A program made the translations under genes and the position numbers. This document shows positions 17,659 through 57,746 of a stretch of 64,000 bases of DNA, piece by piece. The notes beneath the pieces are model-generated. The model searched no databases and was not told the origin of the DNA. It saw only the letters and a list, made by a program, of their open reading frames with translations. Source of the stretch: Massospora cicadina (Eukaryota; Entomophthoromycota; Entomophthoromycetes; Entomophthorales; Entomophthoraceae); contig JAKSZP010014509.1 in assembly GCA_022478985.1 (NCBI GenBank), forward strand, positions 178,885 to 242,884, written 5' to 3'. How positions within the stretch are numbered: position 1 is the stretch's first letter; each line of letters opens with the position of its first letter.

Positions 17659-17903
17659 GGCTGTTGGAATTACGCATCGATGCCTTGAAGCGAGATAGCA
17701 AATACAATGCGGTAAAAGGAGTACTTGGCCATCAAAATGCCGCTCGTGGAGGTTTTTCAGGGTTTACCTTATTTCCCTTCCTTTTATTTAGTACTAGATG
17801 GTTTTATTTCCCTTCCTTTCGATCCACATTTTTCTGGTGAGGTATATTCGTCCTTAGGTTGACCCACTTCTAATAAATATGTAATTAACATCAAATTTGA
17901 ACA
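17659..17903 (+). mobile_element. SINE-2 copy, 5'-truncated, interrupted by a micro-retroposon
   Basis: The body parallels SINE-2 read on its own strand: CGAGATAGC / GCGAGATAGC, GGAGTxCxTGGCC, and GTGGAGGTTTT / ATGGAGGTTTT. The tail GGTGAGGTATATTCGTCC then AGGTTGACCCACTTCTAAT matches the shared SINE tail. There is no tRNA-like head. The probable duplication TTAAGCGG-GGATAT (17645-17658) / TTAAGCGG-CTATAT (17904-17917) matches at 12 of 14 positions, so this copy is older. A 19-bp insertion with its own 16-bp duplication lies inside. Confidence 0.8.
17785..17803 (-). mobile_element. micro-retroposon copy 1
   Basis: On the minus strand the insert is AACCATCTAGTACTAAATA. It is flanked by a perfect 16-bp duplication, TTATTTCCCTTCCTTT, at 17769-17784 and 17804-17819. 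Its core, CCATCTAGTACTA, is shared with copies at 38715, 45197 and 57234. The host is a SINE-2 copy. The GGG present in the other copies is absent here. Confidence 0.85.
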
Positions 17904-29600: not shown

Positions 29601-30084
29601 TATCAGGATTCTCCCTGGATTAGGTAAAAGCCTTGTCCAGGGGAAAATCGATATAATTATCCAAAGGGCATATTTTGTAGATGTCCCATTAATTTGAGAA
29701 CAGAGTTCAATTTGACCAGAATACCAAATTTGAGGCTTTGCCTGAATTATGCTGGATTCAGGGAAAATGTACATTTCCTAATCATTATCTAATCCCTATC
29801 CACTCTTTATCTATTCCCACTTATCCTAGTATTGTAACTTTCCTACAGGTCCCATGACACTACCCTTAAATATCCTTATTCCTATCCTTATAATCCCTAT
29901 TCCTATCCTTATATTTTGAAGCACTATAAATAGTGCTAAATTATTCTAAATAAACTACTTCTCACCTAAAGTCTTATTTTATTTTACTTAACTTAATGGA
30001 AACCCTTTTGTCCAAGGCTGCTAACTTTGAAGCCTAGCCTTCAGATGATCGTGCCACCAATGATTCCTCTCTGGTGGCCCAACA
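29601..30084 (+). repeat. 5' LTR of element B
   Basis: Contains TATAAATAG (about 29934) and AATAAA (about 29951) as promoter and polyadenylation signals, plus a run of TTCCTATCCTTAT repeats (about 29875-29920). Ends GGTGGCCCAACA. Confidence 0.9.
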
Positions 30085-30087
30085 AAA

Positions 30088-30105
30088 TGGTGCTCCCTGC
30101 CAGGT
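30088..30105 (+). promoter_or_regulatory. primer-binding site of element B
   Basis: TGGTGCTCCCTGCCAGGT, three bases after the LTR; one base different from A's PBS. Confidence 0.85.
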
Positions 30106-30177
30106 CGATTCTGAGTTGCACCATGAGGATATAGCCTCAACCTTGGATAAAAAGAGTTATCAATCCTCAGCAAGCAC

Positions 30178-32020
30178 TATGGACCCCAATCTTATGACCT
30201 TTCTCCTTTGGAACGGCAAAGATGCAGTAACTGTGGGAAGCAATTTCACCAAGAAAATCTTCAAATATTCTGAACTATAAGGTCCTGTACATTTCAAATC
30301 ACCTAGCCAACTTAAGCCCTTGCTCAACTTATTTGATACGCCTGCTATAAATAAATCAAAAATTAAAGAGCAATATAGCCAACATCATAAAGTGAAGAGA
30401 TTGAATAAGGCAATACTTTATTGTGAGAAGAGGGCCAAGAGCTACAAGTATGCATGGGACTGTTACCAAGAAGACACTTGGAAAAGCATCTCACAGGGAA
30501 ATCCAGACTGGCCCCTGGGATACCTCATCAGTTGTGAGAAGCTACTCTGCAAATTTCTTTCCAGATTGGGCCATTATAAAAAGAAGCTGACCAAATTGAT
30601 GCTTATTCTTCAGTCAAAAAGCAAAGATCAAACAAATTTGAATACTCAGAATTTAAAAACAACAAATGATTTTAATACTAATAACATTTATTTAGGCAAC
30701 CAAAAATTGATTTTCCACAATGACATCAAATACCAGTCTGATTTAGTGAAAGAAATCAGAACAAATTTTATTAAGTGTTCAGAATTAAAAGTGCCAAACA
30801 TCAATCTGGGCAAGCATCCTCTGAGCAATTGGACCAATCAATTTGGGCCAACAAGTCAAAAGTTAGCTTCCAAATTTGATGTAGGCAACAAGCTGCAGGA
30901 ATTTTTGGGAAGCCCCAAAAGCAATTGGTGCGACGATGTACTTCAAACGCCAGGCAAAATACCTGGGACTTACCTTTAAACTATTGAAAATAAGCTTGAT
31001 GACTCATTTCCTGTAACACTACCACTTTCTGACTTCGATGGCGCCCCTCCAAAAATTGGACCAAATATTACTAAATTAAAGTATCAAAATTACCTGGTTC
31101 AGCTCTCAGATTTGGATAGCGCTGATCCCACCAAAAATGAGAGTCCTGAAAAAATGAAGCTCACTAACTCCTTTCTAACTATCCTTCCACTTTCCAACTT
31201 TGATGGCGCCCCTCCCAAAATTGGGACACAAATTCCTAAAGCAAAAACTCTGGATTACCTGGTTTGACCCTCAGATTTGGATAGCGCTAATCCCAACAAA
31301 AATGAGAGCCAAGAAAAAGCGAAGCTCAACAACTCCTCTTTGGCAACGCTACCACATTTTAACTTTAGACAGCTCCCCTCCAGCAATTGGGCCTAACATT
31401 ACAAAAATGATTGCTGATCCTGAAAAAACCTGCTGGCATTTTGGCCTATCCTATCAGCTGCTGCCTAAGTTAGAGATGCTGATCATCTGTTTCAGGTGCA
31501 ATGAGCTTTGCCACGAGGTGCTCAACAACATATTTGCGCCACATCAGAAGTGGGTTAGTGAGGAGAACCTGCACGAGAGTGAGAAGGATCACTTCAAACT
31601 CCATCTCAACCTTGAAACTGACAAGCACACCATTGCCCTCTTGGATCCCATTGCCAAGCAGATTTCCAAGATGGTGCCCGAGGAGCTGGCTACCTTTTGT
31701 CTGCCATCTGGTCTCAGTGGGCACTTGACAACCATCTGCAGGTATGTTCCCTATAAGCTTTATGATACTGAGGTGAATGAGCACCGCTGCAATAACATAG
31801 ATGTTGCAGCCACCAATATCTTCAGCCTCATGATCCTCTCCAAATCAAATCACCCCTTGGCTGACCATATCAAGCTCTACTTCCACAACTTCCCCATCAG
31901 CACCACTGACCTGGACTGCATCAAGTATGAGGCTCTGTACATCCTCAAGCTTGAGTCTCCATTTTACTATAACCTTCAGGTCACAATTTACTCCCCTAGG
32001 ACAAGGCTTGGGGAGGGCGT
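30178..32020 (+). pseudogene. orphan protein with 55-residue repeats carried by element B
   Basis: One frame runs from the first Met (30178) to about 31340, interrupted only by TAA at 30278, TAA near 30977 and TGA near 31266. It then shifts frame and stays open to the LTR and beyond. The N-terminal part (219 codons open at 30320-30979) is Lys/Asn/Leu-rich (SHHKVKRLNKAI-like, KLLCKFLSRLGHYKK). Next come repeats containing NFDGAPPKIG and LSDLDSA. The C-terminal part (about 215 aa) is better kept (CWHFGLSYQLLPKLEML, KISTTDLDCIKYEALYIL-like). I recognise no domain, and it is not Gag or Pol. It may be a captured host gene or an element-specific protein. Confidence 0.6.
30995..31420 (+). repeat. 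165-bp tandem repeat in B's ORF
   Basis: GATGGCGCCCCTCC recurs at 31037 and 31202, and its diverged form at 31368, i.e. steps of 165-166 bp. The whole unit repeats, including GATTTGGATAGCGCT. 165 bp is 55 codons, so the repeat keeps frame. The third copy has a frameshift. Confidence 0.88.
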
Positions 32021-32506
32021 TGTTGGGATTCTCTCTAGCTTAGGTGAAAGCCTTGTCCAGGGGGAAAATCAATATAATTATCCAAAGGGCATATTTTGCA
32101 GATGGCCCAATAATATGAGAACAGAGTTCGAATTCAACCAGAATACCAAATTTGAGGCTTTGCCTGAATTATGCTGGATTTGGGGAAAATATACATTTCC
32201 TATTCATTATCTAATCCCTATCCACTCTTTATCTATTCCCACTTATCCTAGTATCAGGACTTTCCTACAGGTCCCATGACACTACCATTAAATATTCTTA
32301 TTCCTATCCTTATAATCCCTATTCCTATCCTTATATTTTGAAGCACTATAAATAGTGCTAAATTATTCTAAATAAACTACTTCTCACCTAAACTCTTGTT
32401 TTATTTTACTTGACTTAATGGAAACCCTTTTGCCCAAGGCTGCTAACTTTATAGCCTGGCCTTCAGATGATTGTGCCGCCAATGATTCCTCCCTGGTGGC
32501 CCAACA
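32021..32506 (+). repeat. 3' LTR of element B
   Basis: Begins TGTTGGGATTCTC after the purine-rich GGCTTGGGGAGGGCG and ends CCCAACA before AGGAG. The long open frame of the interior continues 259 bp into it, ending near 32279. Confidence 0.9.
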
Positions 32507-32511
32507 AGGAG

Positions 32512-38344: not shown

Positions 38345-39200
38345 AGCCTCAAAAGCTTGCTAACTCTCATCTTCCCAGCAAAAACGAACTCCTCCTTGTT
38401 TAAATGGGATATGGGCTCAGTAATCCTTACAAATACTTCTACAAATCTTTGATAGTATCATACAATGCCTAATGATATTTGAACATCCCTCATACTCATC
38501 AGAGCTTGCATATTTTTAATTGCCTCCACCTTTTGAGGTTGAGGCCACAAGCCCTTGGAATCAAAGACAAAATTGAGGTATTCCAATTGTTCTTAAAAAG
38601 AATATAATTTTCTAGGTTTTATCTTCAGATTGGCTTTCAACAGCTGTTTAAACACTTGTTCAATGTGCTCCAGATGTTCAGAAAACGTCTGCAAGAAGAT
38701 ATTGATATCATATAGGGACCATCTAGTACTAAAAAAAAAAAGATATTGATATCATATATGTAGACCAGTATGCAGGATAATTTAGTGTCCCCCAAAGTTG
38801 TGTCCATTCTGCACTGAAAGGTCGCAGGAACATTGCACAGCCTCTGGGAATGTGCATCTTTTGAAAAATTCTTGAGCAATCATCATGCACTTCTCCTGCT
38901 TCTCTTGAGGCAGTTCAATTTTCCAGTATCTGGAGATAAGGTCCATTATGATGTAATACTCCAGATCTCCCAACCAGTTCAGTTCATCATCAATTCTGGG
39001 AAATGGATACAAATCCTTTTTCATAATGACATTGAGGTGACAATAATTATTTACAACTCAATTGATGCCATCTTTTTTATTCACAAATAAACTGGGCTGG
39101 CTCACGGGCTTTTCAAAGGCACAATTATTCCAATTTTCAGCAATTTGTCTAACTCTTCTATAACTACTTCATAGCTAGCCCAGGGGTGTCAGATTGGCCT
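38345..39200 (-). pseudogene. reverse transcriptase of element C, with micro-retroposon insertion
   Basis: Minus strand: MKKDLYPFPRIDDELNWLGD (39024 down), then RYWKIELPQEKQEKCMM, NVPATFQCRMDTTL and LVYIYDINIF, where the YLDD box is altered. Just after this box the frame is broken by the 25-bp insertion at 38715-38739. The other side continues as SEHLEHIEQVF-like sequence. Confidence 0.8.
38715..38739 (+). mobile_element. micro-retroposon copy 2
   Basis: Core GGGACCATCTAGTACT (38715-38730) followed by nine A. It is flanked by a perfect 19-bp duplication, AAGATATTGATATCATATA, at 38696-38714 and 38740-38758. The clearest copy of the family. It lies within the RT region of element C, so it is younger than C. 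Confidence 0.92.
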
Positions 39201-44773: not shown

Positions 44774-45332
44774 TGTCAGATTTTCAGCGCTGATTAGAAC
44801 ATGACCCCACCTGGGTTGAGTATCTGAAAAATGTGTCCTAACGCCTTTTCTCACCCCAGCGGATTTTCCTTATTAAGCTAGCAACCTGCTTAGGTAATGG
44901 ACCTTTTAACCATTAATAGAAGTTCGCGTTACTTAGAAGGTTAACCTGCAAGTTGCTACCAAAAGCGTTGTCAATGCCTTGCAACTAACAATTAATTCTT
45001 AATCACATGGTGAAAAACTCCAATTGACTCATACAGCATAATGAAATTATCAATTGGTAAAATTAATAATCAAACCATTTTTAATTATTTTTGGGGATTC
45101 TCCCCAGTAGAACATAAGCAATACTGTGGATTCAAATCCCGTTGGATGAGTTAATATCTCATTAGAAATTATAACCAAAAATAGTTAAATATTCCAGGGA
45201 CCATCTAGTACTAAAAAATAGTTAAATATCCCATTATAACTCCCACATCCGCTATGGTAATTCACTCCAGCGGAAAAAGCAGAAAAATTTATAATTGATC
45301 AAGCTGAATTATCTGGCACACTAAAACTCCAA
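44774..45332 (-). repeat. 3' LTR of H, inner part
   Basis: On the minus strand the LTR opens TGTTGGAGTTTTAGTG after the polypurine tract AAAGAGGGGGGA. It runs down to the end of A at 44768 (duplication CATAT). It carries micro-retroposon copy 3. Confidence 0.65.
45197..45213 (+). mobile_element. micro-retroposon copy 3
   Basis: GGGACCATCTAGTACT plus an A-run that merges with the duplication AAAAATAGTTAAATAT (45177-45192 and 45214-45229). Counting three more bases the duplication is 19 bp with one difference (TCC/CCC). Inserted in H's 3' LTR. Confidence 0.88.
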
Positions 45333-51106: not shown

Positions 51107-52279
51107 TCAGCGAGATAGCTCAAAAATCTGTTCCTGTTGTGCATTGTACTTGAGTTCCAGAGTCTCGATTTTCGCTTGGAGCAATTCCCCTTTTGATTCA
51201 CAAGCATGTAATAAGATATCAGTGTCCTTGGCCCACTTTCCAAAATTGATCAATTCATTGGACAAGGACTGCAGAGTCAAAAGGGGGTCAATTGGTACCC
51301 CATCAGGGGTTAGGTTGCATTCTTTGGCCACCTTAGAGAATTGTTCATGTAAGTGGGTCATCATGTTCATGAGAGAGCTGATAAATTTGAATGATAAGAG
51401 GTCTGAATGACCATCAGCGCCTGGAGGTCCACGAGGTCCATCAGCTCCAGGGGGTCCACGAGGCCCTACACCTCCAGGTGGCCCACGAGGTCCTTCTACC
51501 CCAGGAGGACCCATATTTCCAGAGGTTTTCTCTACTTCATTGACCCAAAACTGAATTTCTGAGTACAATTGTTCCAATTGAAAAAGACAGGTTCTAATTT
51601 CTTCCTCCATTGATTGACTATTCTCAGAGAGTTGGGAAACACCCTCTCTCCATTCCTTCTGGATCTCTTGAACCTTTTTTGGAAACTGTACATCAATAAA
51701 ATTTGATATCCCATGATCAAACTGAATGAGCTGCTGTTGTACTTCGTTGAGGGAAGTTTGATTATTAATAATAGCATCACAATTATCTCAGCTAAACTCG
51801 GAGGCTGACTTGAAAAACTCAGAAATATAATTATTCAAGGATTGGAGTCCTTCTAGTAAATTGAGCATCCCTTGATGGTGCATTCCAACTACAGGTAGCA
51901 AGTGGTATAATGTAGGATGTACAAGTTGTTGTAGATATTGTTTGGAGCCAATCCCTGGCATTTGAGAGGTTTGCAGCACTTCTCACAATATAGAAGGTAC
52001 TGCATTCAATCAAGATTGGGTAGAACGTATTCCAGGGATTAGAGCCCCTTCAAGTAATTGATTGATGATATTTTGCAAGGCCTCAGGTGGAATTTGAAAG
52101 TCTGAGGCAAAACTTAAGTTAGGATTATAGAATTCCAAGTTGGCCTGAAATTCCAACGTGGAGGGTAATCTTGGGATTTGGGCTCCAATTGAAGGGACCC
52201 ATCGTAAAATACTGCCTTGCTCTTGATCTTGAGCCTCGTCAGGCGAAAATTGAGAATCCATGGTGATAGACGTGGTCAC
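51107..52279 (-). pseudogene. N-terminal Gag of element G with coiled coil and collagen-like repeat
   Basis: Same frame as the 408-codon part. It starts near 52279 (first Mets MTTSITMDSQF) and is interrupted by TGA at 52010, 51983, 51788 and 51107. Helical, Gln/Glu-rich segments (LNEVQQQLIQFD, VQEIQKEWREGVSQLSE) precede the collagen-like block at 51404-51511. The block is followed by another helical, probably coiled-coil segment (HLHEQFSKVAKE, LLQAKIETLELKYNAQQEQI). A trimeric coiled coil plus collagen arrangement is plausible but inferred. Confidence 0.85.
51404..51511 (-). other. collagen-like Gly-X-Y block in Gag of G
   Basis: Twelve uninterrupted Gly-X-Y triplets (residues 34-69 of the open stretch that starts at 51610), e.g. 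GPPGVEGPRGPPG and GADGPRGPPGAD. Pro is frequent at the X and Y positions and Arg at Y, as in triple-helix formers. The DNA repeats in units of 18-27 bp (CCACGAGGxCC on the plus strand). Confidence 0.93.
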
Positions 52280-52657: not shown

Positions 52658-55100
52658 GCGTCTTTTTTTCAGAGCCTTGTGGCTAGAGGTCCATTGACTT
52701 TTTCTAAAATTACATTTGTTTCTGGATGGTAAGGGATGGACACCACTCCTCAGATTCCCATTAATTCATTCAAACTTGAGAGACATAGGACATAAAGCTG
52801 GTTTAGTTATCACTTAGTATACTTGCAGGAGTCCATGCTAGTATACTACTTGGTCCAGTATGAATCTCGCAGTGTTCATAGCATCTTCTTTTTCTCAAGG
52901 ACTTCATCTTGAACCCGTTTAGTCAGATGGTCTACCATGACTAAAGTATACTTTATCCCCAGTACTAACATAGAGGTCCCATAAAATCTATTGACACCGT
53001 GTGCCAAGCAAACTCATGGCGTATTAACTGGTATCACATTACGTTCTTATGGGGCTTGTGGAGTTGACATTCCATGAAACAGGCTAAATAATCCGCGAAA
53101 ATTGTAATTTATTAATTTTTAGTAGTACTACTAGCGTAGATGGTCCATTGTTTTTCTTAGGTCACCATGACATATGACTTTGTGTGAAGCTTGAATAAGT
53201 TCTGAGCATTCCGAAGTTTTAGGGAATAAGCCCCATTTTCCATCAATTGAATTATACAGCTGTCCGTTCTTCATCTTGATATTTCCCATCTCTTTATTCT
53301 GCGCGCTTTGGATCTCCTGGGATCTCCCCAATATTTTCTTCATTAATTTGTTGGGATAATTCATTTACTTGTTGGTACACAACTTGAACGGCAGGTAATT
53401 TCAATAATCCATCAGCATTCTAATGTGCTGATCCTGCTTGGTGTATAATCTTGAAATCATAAGCAAGAAGTTTCAAAGCCCATTGATACAGTCGCCCCTC
53501 TAGTTCTTTAAATTTATGCAACCAGCGTAGAGATGAGTGGTCACTGACGACCTTAAGATGTGTCTCATTAATATACTATTGATTGTTTTCAGCTGTATAC
53601 CACCAAAAAGTATTCACGCACCATCACAGTCTAGTTTTTTTTATCTAAAATCAATGTCAGACTCACATACTCCACAAAATTTCTTCCCCATCATCGTCTT
53701 CTTGATTTAAAATGGCTCTGATTGCCATTAATGAGGCATCCATCTGAATAATAAACTCCCAAAAAGGTGGGTATTTCAGAACAGGATTAGTCATTAGATA
53801 ACTCCTGAGCTCAATGAACGCTTCTTGGGCTCCTCATTACACACAAAATTTCTTTATTCAGATCATTCAGTAGGTAAAATAGTGGTTTGGAAATTCTGAC
53901 AAAACTTTTTTAAATCAGTTTAGTAGATGGCCATCCCAATAAAGACTTGTATGTCCAGAAAACTCAATGAAATTGACATCCATTCATTGGCTAATATGTT
54001 CTACAGCTGCATTTGTAATCTACTGGAGTTTATCACAAACCCTGTATAATCTATCTCATTCTTGAAATAATTAGCATTTTCTTGGCTTGATTTTATATTC
54101 TTCATCAATAGGCAATTTAACACTTCCTCCAAGCTTTCCAAGCAATTGATAAATGTCCTACTGAATACATCAATATCATACAATTACACCAAATTTACAA
54201 AACTTTAGGTCACCCAAGATAGAATCCATGTCCATCTGGAAAGTCGCTGGCGCATTACACAATTCCTGGGGCATCCTTATTGACTGGTAAAATCCTTGTG
54301 TGGTAATTATCACACTTCTCTTAATCTTCTTTTGGCACGTCTATATGCCAATAAACTGAGATCAAATCCATCGCTGAAAAGAAAATGGCTTTCCCTGTGC
54401 AATCAAGTGCGTTGTCTATCCTCAGCAGCGGTTACAAATCCTTCTCAGTGATTTTATTCACCTGGAAAAATTTACCAATCAATCTGATTCTTCCTTTTTC
54501 ATAACAATAAGTCTTTAGGATCACACATGAACTTGATGACTTTATAAAAAGCCCATGCTCAATCAGTTTACTGATTTATTCACTTATTATTGCTTCAGCA
54601 GCCTTGGATCAGCTGACAGATCGCATTTGTATTGGTGATATTCCCCAGTGTCAACTTTTTAATCACATTTTTAGTGCATCCAAGGTTATAATCATCCTGG
54701 GAAAATGTCACCCAATATTTCTCAAATAATCATAGTACTTCTTCCTGCTGTTGTTAAATTAACCTAGTCAGTTGTTCTCAATCTACCATTATGTTAATGT
54801 TTTTGCAGCATCCACTGGTAAGCCTATCCATACTAGTGTTCCAAAGTTATGTAACTCTCTGATTTCTACTGTTGAAATTAGATGAGCAAACACATTAAAT
54901 TTTTTTCCCACTTTCATCGAGTTTTTACTAAGGTTGGCCAGTAGTACTAAGATTTCACCATGTTATGGCATTATAATCCCCTGAGCTACCCAAGGCTCCA
55001 ATCTCAAATTTATTCCATGGGTGACGACTTCTCCATATAATTGTTTTAATAGTTCTAACATTAACCCTGTGGGACTTCTCTTTCTTCTTGGAGTAAGTTT
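52658..55100 (-). pseudogene. RT-RNase H-integrase N-terminal part of H
   Basis: From high to low coordinates: linker and RT with MPQELCNAPATFQMDMDSIL (about 54215-54275), YDIDVFSRTFINCLESLEEV (about 54125-54183, the YLDD block reduced to YDID), then RNase H (about 53400-53830). The integrase zinc module ASHKVICHGDLRKTMDHLR (about 53131-53190) follows, then the core up to G's insertion. Very many stops. This is the most decayed of the assignable elements. Confidence 0.7.
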
Positions 55101-56840: not shown

Positions 56841-57746
56841 GTAGTTTCCGGTGCCCACCTGGTTGTTTGTTTGCTCTAAGTGTTCACTCAATCAGCTCAT
56901 TTAGGCGTTTTGTTTGAGCCAGATTAGTTACATTTTTAGTTTAGTTTTAGTTTTGGTAATGTCCGTCCCCTGGTCAGCATACCTCAAATAGATATAAAAC
57001 ATTAACCCTGTGTTAACTATCATTTACATCCCAGTAGAATAATATTTTTCAATTTCGTTCTCCTAGGTACCTCATGGTTTTTGAGTTTCTGCTTCAGCAT
57101 TTCCCTGATTTTTATTCCAATTAACTTATATTGGATGGGAATTATACCATCATTGTAGATTAAACTTAAAAAATTATACTTTTTCATCAGTTGAGTTTCA
57201 ACCTTCTGCAGATATTAGGGATAGGGTTTATCTTTTTTTTAGTACTAGATGGTCCCAAGATAGGGTTTATCTCAAGATTGTAAAAGTGGTCTCCTTAAAA
57301 TCACATCTGAAACCATACTTTCTCAGGATTCAGTTCCAATGAGTATGTCATAATTTTATTGTGCTAGCACTATAGCAGAATCTGATACAACCAGTGATAC
57401 AAATCAAAGCGGCAGTGAACTTAATGATCCACAAGATGACGTTGAATTTGGTCTAAAGATTTCATATTTTTTCCAGTGTTATAAATCTGGTAGAGCCTTC
57501 AATCATTTCACCAACTTGGTCAAAATGATACTAGTGGCCGCTCCTCTATTGATTATCACCCATACTATTACTCTATTGAATATATTTTTTGCATATGCAC
57601 TCTCAAATATTTTAATAAAGTGTTTACTTATTGAATCAAGGAAAAATTCACCAAATCTAGAGTATAATTAATTGCGCAGACAAAACAAGAAAAGATCCTT
57701 TGATTACTCAAATATGTAGAGAAACATTTGCCTTGACAAGCTTCAC
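56841..57746. other. unassigned stretch
   Basis: AT-rich after the island. A plus-strand frame at about 57370-57645 is open (SGSELNDPQDDVEFGLKISY, NHFTNLVKMILVAAPLLIIT). It faintly recalls the C-terminal dimerisation part of hAT transposases (...LAKxILxIPA...), but not enough for a call. It carries micro-retroposon copy 4. Confidence 0.35.
57234..57258 (-). mobile_element. micro-retroposon copy 4
   Basis: On the minus strand TTGGGACCATCTAGTACT followed by seven A, with the perfect 14-bp duplication GATAGGGTTTATCT at 57220-57233 and 57259-57272. Opposite orientation to copies 2 and 3. Confidence 0.9.

Follow-up and report, generated by a model that had tools for sequence, protein, structure and literature searches.

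Tiny LINE copies of quantised length in the genome of Massospora cicadina

Why LINEs are so often cut short at the 5′ end has long been debated, and the problem is usually approached through broad spreads of copy length. The short inserts described here work like LINE insertions made by target-primed reverse transcription (TPRT), and what departs from the described systems is the law of their lengths. They share with the 5′-truncated copies of human L1 an A-tail, target-site duplications (TSDs), an A-rich target start, the loss of the 5′ side and TPRT itself (PMC2912911, PMC12016303). Human L1 is also mostly truncated (PMC12016303), but among 100 copies sampled here 88 were scored at 43 nt or less and a single longer one ended within the sequence read. 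Furthermore, nearly 80% of the 5′-truncated human L1 copies carry microhomology at the junction (PMC2912911), whereas here no excess over permuted junctions was observed.

Two fungal systems come close in other respects. The Ylli LINE of Yarrowia has likewise left many short pieces, 104 of them between 30 bp and 1 kb; in the published account of these pieces, as far as it describes them, TSDs were not identified and no quantised classes are reported (PMC5014426). In the MGL and MINE elements of Magnaporthe, the reverse transcriptase leaves its template at preferred sites, with hairpins as the proposed cause (PMC2104539). There, however, synthesis continues on a second RNA and the LINE-derived portion measures 230–5,461 nt (PMC2104539), while it is 13–43 nt here and no second RNA was seen. 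SINEs and tailless retropseudogenes are also short inserts mobilised by LINEs and flanked by duplications (PMC2912911). The S and M copies of the present study (the classes are defined below) differ from both. They consist of 13–43 nt of the LINE's own 3′ UTR, which leaves no room for the internal Pol III promoter of a SINE, and inspection of the scored inserts revealed none; they also carry the A-tail that a tailless retropseudogene lacks. Quantised tiny LINE copies were not described in the titles and abstract openings of a mainly open literature, thin in subscription journals, and a text search of that same literature gave no occurrence of the 16-mer discussed below. Published work on the genome of M. 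cicadina itself reports an abundance of Ty3 elements, a 6.3% share of L1 LINEs and practically no DNA transposons (PMC10515909).

Four short inserts in a 64-kb window

The original prediction had placed four inserts with a common core, an A-rich end and TSDs, in both orientations, in the window (the whole stretch of DNA that was analysed, 64 kb in length), and all four were confirmed. The inserts at 38715, 45197, 57234 and 17785 have in common the core ACCATCTAGTACT, an A-rich end and TSDs of 14–20 bp; in each of them a duplication, perfect or nearly so, encloses the core ACCATCTAGTACTAAA and the A-rich end. A search of the window for the core CCATCTAGTACTA returned exactly four occurrences, two on the + strand and two on the − strand. 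An LTR-internal tandem repeat aside, the insert is the sole source of complex 13-mers with at least four copies in the window.

The first insert (38715..38739, +) comprises 16 nt, GGGACCATCTAGTACT (38715–38730), which are the same 3′ end as that of the long LINE copies, and a tail of nine A. As had been predicted, it is flanked by a perfect 19-bp duplication (38696..38714 and 38740..38758, both +; 19/19 identical). The second insert (45197..45213, +) is again GGGACCATCTAGTACT, followed by at least one A, its tail being ambiguous (1–6). Its duplication (45177..45196 and, from the direct-repeat scan, 45214..45233, both +) is exact over 16 bp (16/16) and reaches 20 bp with one mismatch (19/20). 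On the − strand, the third insert (57234..57258) consists of GGGACCATCTAGTACT (57256–57241), preceded by an extra TT and followed by a 7-A tail. The direct-repeat scan placed its 14-bp duplication at 57220..57233 on the tail side and 57259..57272 on the 5′ side (−; 14/14). The fourth insert (17785..17803, −) is AACCATCTAGTACT followed by AAATA and is without GGG; its 16-bp duplication, from the same scan, lies at 17769..17784 on the tail side and 17804..17819 on the 5′ side (−; 16/16). The earlier statement that three of the four inserts start at the same GGG was corrected accordingly: TT precedes GGG at 57234, and the insert at 17785 starts with AACC.

The direct-repeat scan, which skipped low complexity, detected 11 exact pairs of at least 14 bp and at most 400 bp apart in the window, four of which flank the core inserts, and ten order-3 Markov controls produced 0 or 1 pair each. 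A separate scan for A-tails with TSDs, allowing a spacing of up to 8 kb, produced eight pairs on both strands together. Five of them had a TSD of at least 13 bp or an insert below 400 bp, and these correspond to three of the four core inserts and two LTR pairs; the insert at 45197 failed this filter because of its short tail. In six one-strand controls of the same scan 0–3 pairs were found, none of at least 13 bp.

The insert at 38715 interrupts the reverse-transcriptase (RT) frame of a Gypsy element on the − strand, and the second copy of its duplication lies within this frame. With the site filled, the alignment to each of two other Gypsy RT frames of the window is split into two pieces. If the site is emptied (38696–38758), the alignment runs continuously through both frames (44.7% over 85 aa and 43.9% over 98 columns). 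The whole window yielded no tRNA gene and no Rfam match at gathering level, and the 20-mer had no exact copy in viral contigs. An origin from a tRNA 3′ end, suggested by the GGGACCA in the sequence, was considered and rejected. A weak lookalike at 53123–53148 (−), GGACCATCTACGCTAGTAGTACTACTAAAAA, is not a copy of the insert, since a gapless alignment made by eye assigns it to native, decaying Gypsy integrase coding sequence.

The parent LINE and the lengths of its copies

In the source genome (1,469,884,898 bases), the word GGGACCATCTAGTACTAAAA has 19,101 exact occurrences and the reversed word none. The first 30 places of this word were of three kinds: very short inserts, inserts of ~41 nt starting with ACATCGATGAATCCCCC (or a near variant), and long copies. 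The long copies belong to a LINE and are 93–99% identical to one another over 0.5–3 kb. Copy L077 contains an uninterrupted ORF of 899 codons with an RVT_1 domain (E 7.4e-31), and the other long copies align to it; a zf-RVT domain falls just below the Pfam cut-off in L077 and L002 (26.1–26.7 bits vs 27.5). The C-terminal residues before the stop are similar in ten long copies, the frames being mostly broken further up, and the four long copies with 3 kb read match one another over ~2.97 kb or more. Judged by sequence, the four inserts of the window do not form a separate family; they are 3′-terminal pieces of a LINE that has an RVT_1 frame. The LINE-type TPRT that had been proposed for them is thereby supported, and so is one of the two origins then considered, namely that they are copies of a longer LINE that shares their 3′ end and was truncated to an extreme degree on the 5′ side.

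The 3′ UTR of this LINE is about 41 nt; in L077 the stop TAA is followed by ACATCGATGAATCCCCCCTTGGGTTGGGACCATCTAGTACT and then by the A-tail. Since the ~41-nt inserts start at the first base after the stop, they represent the whole 3′ UTR. The stop TAA overlaps AATAAA (L077:2965–3000), which places a possible poly(A) signal together with the stop right at the boundary of the ~41-nt class. Folding of the LINE 3′ end was no better than that of shuffled sequences (z 0.06), and the pairing of a possible terminal stem, GAUG-UCCC/GGGA-CAUC, is partly broken in the long copies L059 and L072. One long copy, L010, has an internal deletion of ~115 nt shortly before the 3′ end.

Insert lengths, from the duplication to the tail, were determined at the first 100 places listed for ACCATCTAGTACTAAAA, in position order (contigs C1–C8). 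This word demands 13 LINE nt and AAAA; all sampled copies thus agree in their last 13 nt by design, and inserts below 13 nt are outside the sample. Sixty-three tails were preceded by 13–24 nt, with one more short insert (L047) whose low-complexity duplication was left unscored, and 67 by 13–28 nt. Four fell into the bin of 25–35 nt. A further 21 had 36–43 nt, with one more of that kind (L052) in which no duplication was found; one had 505 nt, and nine extended past the sequence read (0.8 to 3 kb). All 88 scored copies are of 43 nt or less, and of the 100 only the 505-nt copy is longer than that and yet ends within the read sequence. Without its tail, the insert is shorter than its own duplication in 26 of the 88 scored sites. 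The lengths of the LINE copies are quantised, not smooth, and form three classes: S (13–24 nt), M (~41 nt) and long copies, mostly of ~3 kb or more. The lower edge of S at 13 nt is set by the search word, and S inserts of less than 13 nt are likely.

These lengths bear on the original prediction in two ways. An independent retroposon family that always starts at GGG is not borne out, as the starts of the short class spread over 13–24 nt before the tail. Nor are most copies long with smoothly varying lengths, the pattern by which truncated copies of an ordinary LINE or SINE were to be recognised: 88 of 100 were scored at 43 nt or less, in quantised classes.

The genome was further analysed by counting exact words on both strands. 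Diverged copies are undercounted in this way, to a different degree for each word, and copies with the CATTG or CAATG variants, which do occur, escape the 41- and 47-nt words. The search for the sequence followed by an A-run, with a tabulation of lengths and TSDs, which had been suggested as a check, revealed tens of thousands of copies, and long copies were found. There were 36,826 copies with 9 LINE nt before the tail (five A required), 30,632 of ACCATCTAGTACTAAAA (13 LINE nt), 19,101 at 16 nt and 10,236 at 21 nt. The count was 6,648 at ~41 nt vs 2,026 at ~47 nt, that is with six upstream bases added. A LINE word located 363 nt upstream of ACC had 2,574 copies and one located 2,958 nt upstream 2,415, a drop of 6%. 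Reversed-word controls gave 45 for the 14-mer (9 nt and five A) and 0 for the others.

Places listed for these words were also compared. Eighteen of the 100 listed for the 9-nt word are absent from the ACCATCTAGTACTAAAA list and thus lack ACCA, by truncation or mutation. With the 41-nt word, 33 of the 100 listed places continue into CAATAA, and one of the other 67 adjoins the 363-nt word. The 363-nt word is carried by 68 of the 76 listed places that pass the stop, and in five of the remaining eight a comparison by eye located the 2,958-nt word where it is expected.

The TPRT origin of the inserts is firm. TSDs of at least 11 bp were found in 82 of the 88 scored sites (median 16; mode 16–17 bp; mostly 15–18 bp), and pure A preceded the second duplication in 77 of the 88, although the search word already requires AAAA. 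The first base of the TSD was A in 75 of 82 cases, partly by construction since the left edge was pushed through shared A. The two copies of the duplication differed at 7 of 976 nt in S and at 4 of 327 nt in M, two of these four mismatches coming from the over-extended L008. Nineteen M junctions were retained from 21, after removal of L092 (10-bp duplication, unlike 5′ part) and L008 (TSD over-extended by the script). In sixteen of them the sequence is compatible with a start immediately behind the stop codon, and the other three start one or two bases earlier, inside the stop. Among the 16 fits, eight share at least one base with the target, so that their start is uncertain by the shared length, and three carry 1–2 extra bases. 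For S, the junction set covered inserts of 14–28 nt with a TSD of at least 11 bp, the 13-nt inserts being left out. Extra bases at the 5′ junction were present in 20 of 49 S and 3 of 19 M junctions; L005, L006 and L045 have 4–8 of them, and those of L006 look copied from the flank. Counted among the junctions without extra bases, microhomology was not in excess in S (9/29; permuted 42%) or in M (8/16; permuted 52%).

Possible origin of the two length limits

We consider it probable that the inserts are TPRT products of one LINE, whose RNA would end in TAA-ACATCGATGAATCCCCCCTTGGGTTGGGACCATCTAGTACT-A(n), and that their synthesis breaks off within the 3′ UTR. For the two length limits we infer the following causes. 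A nick would prime first-strand synthesis on the poly(A) tail, and most attempts would arrest within the first ~24 nt, while crossing the 3′ arm and the loop of the possible terminal stem. The S starts would coincide with the 3′ arm of this putative stem (8–16 nt) and the loop beyond. The stem is nevertheless a weak reason for S because the S starts spread over 13–24 nt instead of falling at one base, and a start-up phase with a low hold on the template may explain S as well as the stem does. Copies that pass this zone would meet a second limit at the stop codon. This limit could come from template RNAs that end there (3′-UTR fragments, M being the run-off product) or from a factor that sits on the stop codon or on AATAAA and blocks the enzyme. 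Run-off on a 3′-UTR RNA or a block at the stop are the favoured causes of the 41-nt class, and of the two we favour the template end, in view of the sharp edge and of junctions that resemble those of run-off products. The remaining copies would run on for kilobases. Joining of the aborted cDNA and filling of the gap would then produce a full-size duplication around an insert of 13–43 nt.

A different template is conceivable, although we consider it doubtful: a discrete polyadenylated RNA, the LINE's own 3′ UTR of ~41 nt cut off at the stop, would be mobilised much like a SINE. M would be its full-length copies and S their 5′ truncations, intact LINE RNA giving only long copies. The start of M is indeed sharp (16/19 fit the first base after the stop), and the count falls from 6,648 to 2,026 when six nt are added. 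The junction microhomology without excess also agrees with such a template, as human L1 has less of it in full-length than in 5′-truncated copies (PMC2912911). However, the S copies alone would not require a small RNA, and because the stop codon overlaps AATAAA a protein bound there would be an equal cause. The tiny polyadenylated RNA of the original prediction may still apply to the ~41-nt class, whose sequence coincides exactly with the 3′ UTR of the LINE. About as doubtful is the idea that the ~41-nt 3′ UTR, freed at the stop by a cleavage linked to translation termination, is a retroposon in its own right that was copied thousands of times. If true, its arrested copies (24 nt and less) would provide a natural readout of the start-up failure of a reverse transcriptase. 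It would then be the smallest mobile RNA unit known to us.

The near all-or-nothing lengths would also be expected if a host repair or silencing factor dislodged the enzyme early, after some tens of nucleotides at most, and the escapees ran on, since the counts of the 363-nt and 2,958-nt words (2,574 vs 2,415) indicate little loss after escape. We regard this as unlikely, because a host factor alone would leave the edge at the stop unexplained. Plain 5′ truncation with smoothly varying lengths, as in any ordinary LINE, appears very improbable. It would account for a 3′ end identical to that of the long copies, and short pieces of fungal LINEs are known (Ylli, 30 bp–1 kb, PMC5014426). The broad smooth spread of lengths that it implies was not found, as judged from the near-empty range above 43 nt and from the word counts: one tail (505 nt) of 100 exceeds 43 nt and still ends within the read sequence, the sample is nearly empty between 44 and ~490 nt, and 68 of the 76 listed copies past the stop carry the 363-nt word, with a fall of only 6% to the 2,958-nt word. 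That the copies are assembly artefacts or chance repeats is scarcely credible given 36,826 copies vs 45 of the reversed word, the different flanks of the 100 sites, 88 of which have a scored duplication, and the alignment of the empty site at 38715.

The inserts show that a cDNA with only 13–20 nt of the element and a tail suffices for a complete insertion with a normal duplication. The natural end points provided by this one family number tens of thousands and fall into two classes besides the kilobase copies, so that early arrest, the boundary at the stop codon and processive copying are separable and testable within it. Inserts of this size are probably too short for the usual repeat masking, and counts of masked copies could therefore understate LINE activity; about nine tenths of the events in this LINE family could be missed if activity were counted in that way.

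Other elements of the window

An LTR element at 29606–32507 (+) has LTRs that are 93% alike (29606–30085 and 32026–32507). It contains an ORF with a Sin3 co-repressor domain (Pfam 9.6e-12), which is likely a captured piece of a host gene. The Gypsy element at 46.3–52.7 kb carries a collagen-like GPP repeat at 51107–51610 (−), upstream of the gag-protease ORF, where the Pfam Collagen match is just below the cut-off. Of two protein searches, one gave no relatives and the other four relatives of the Gypsy gag.
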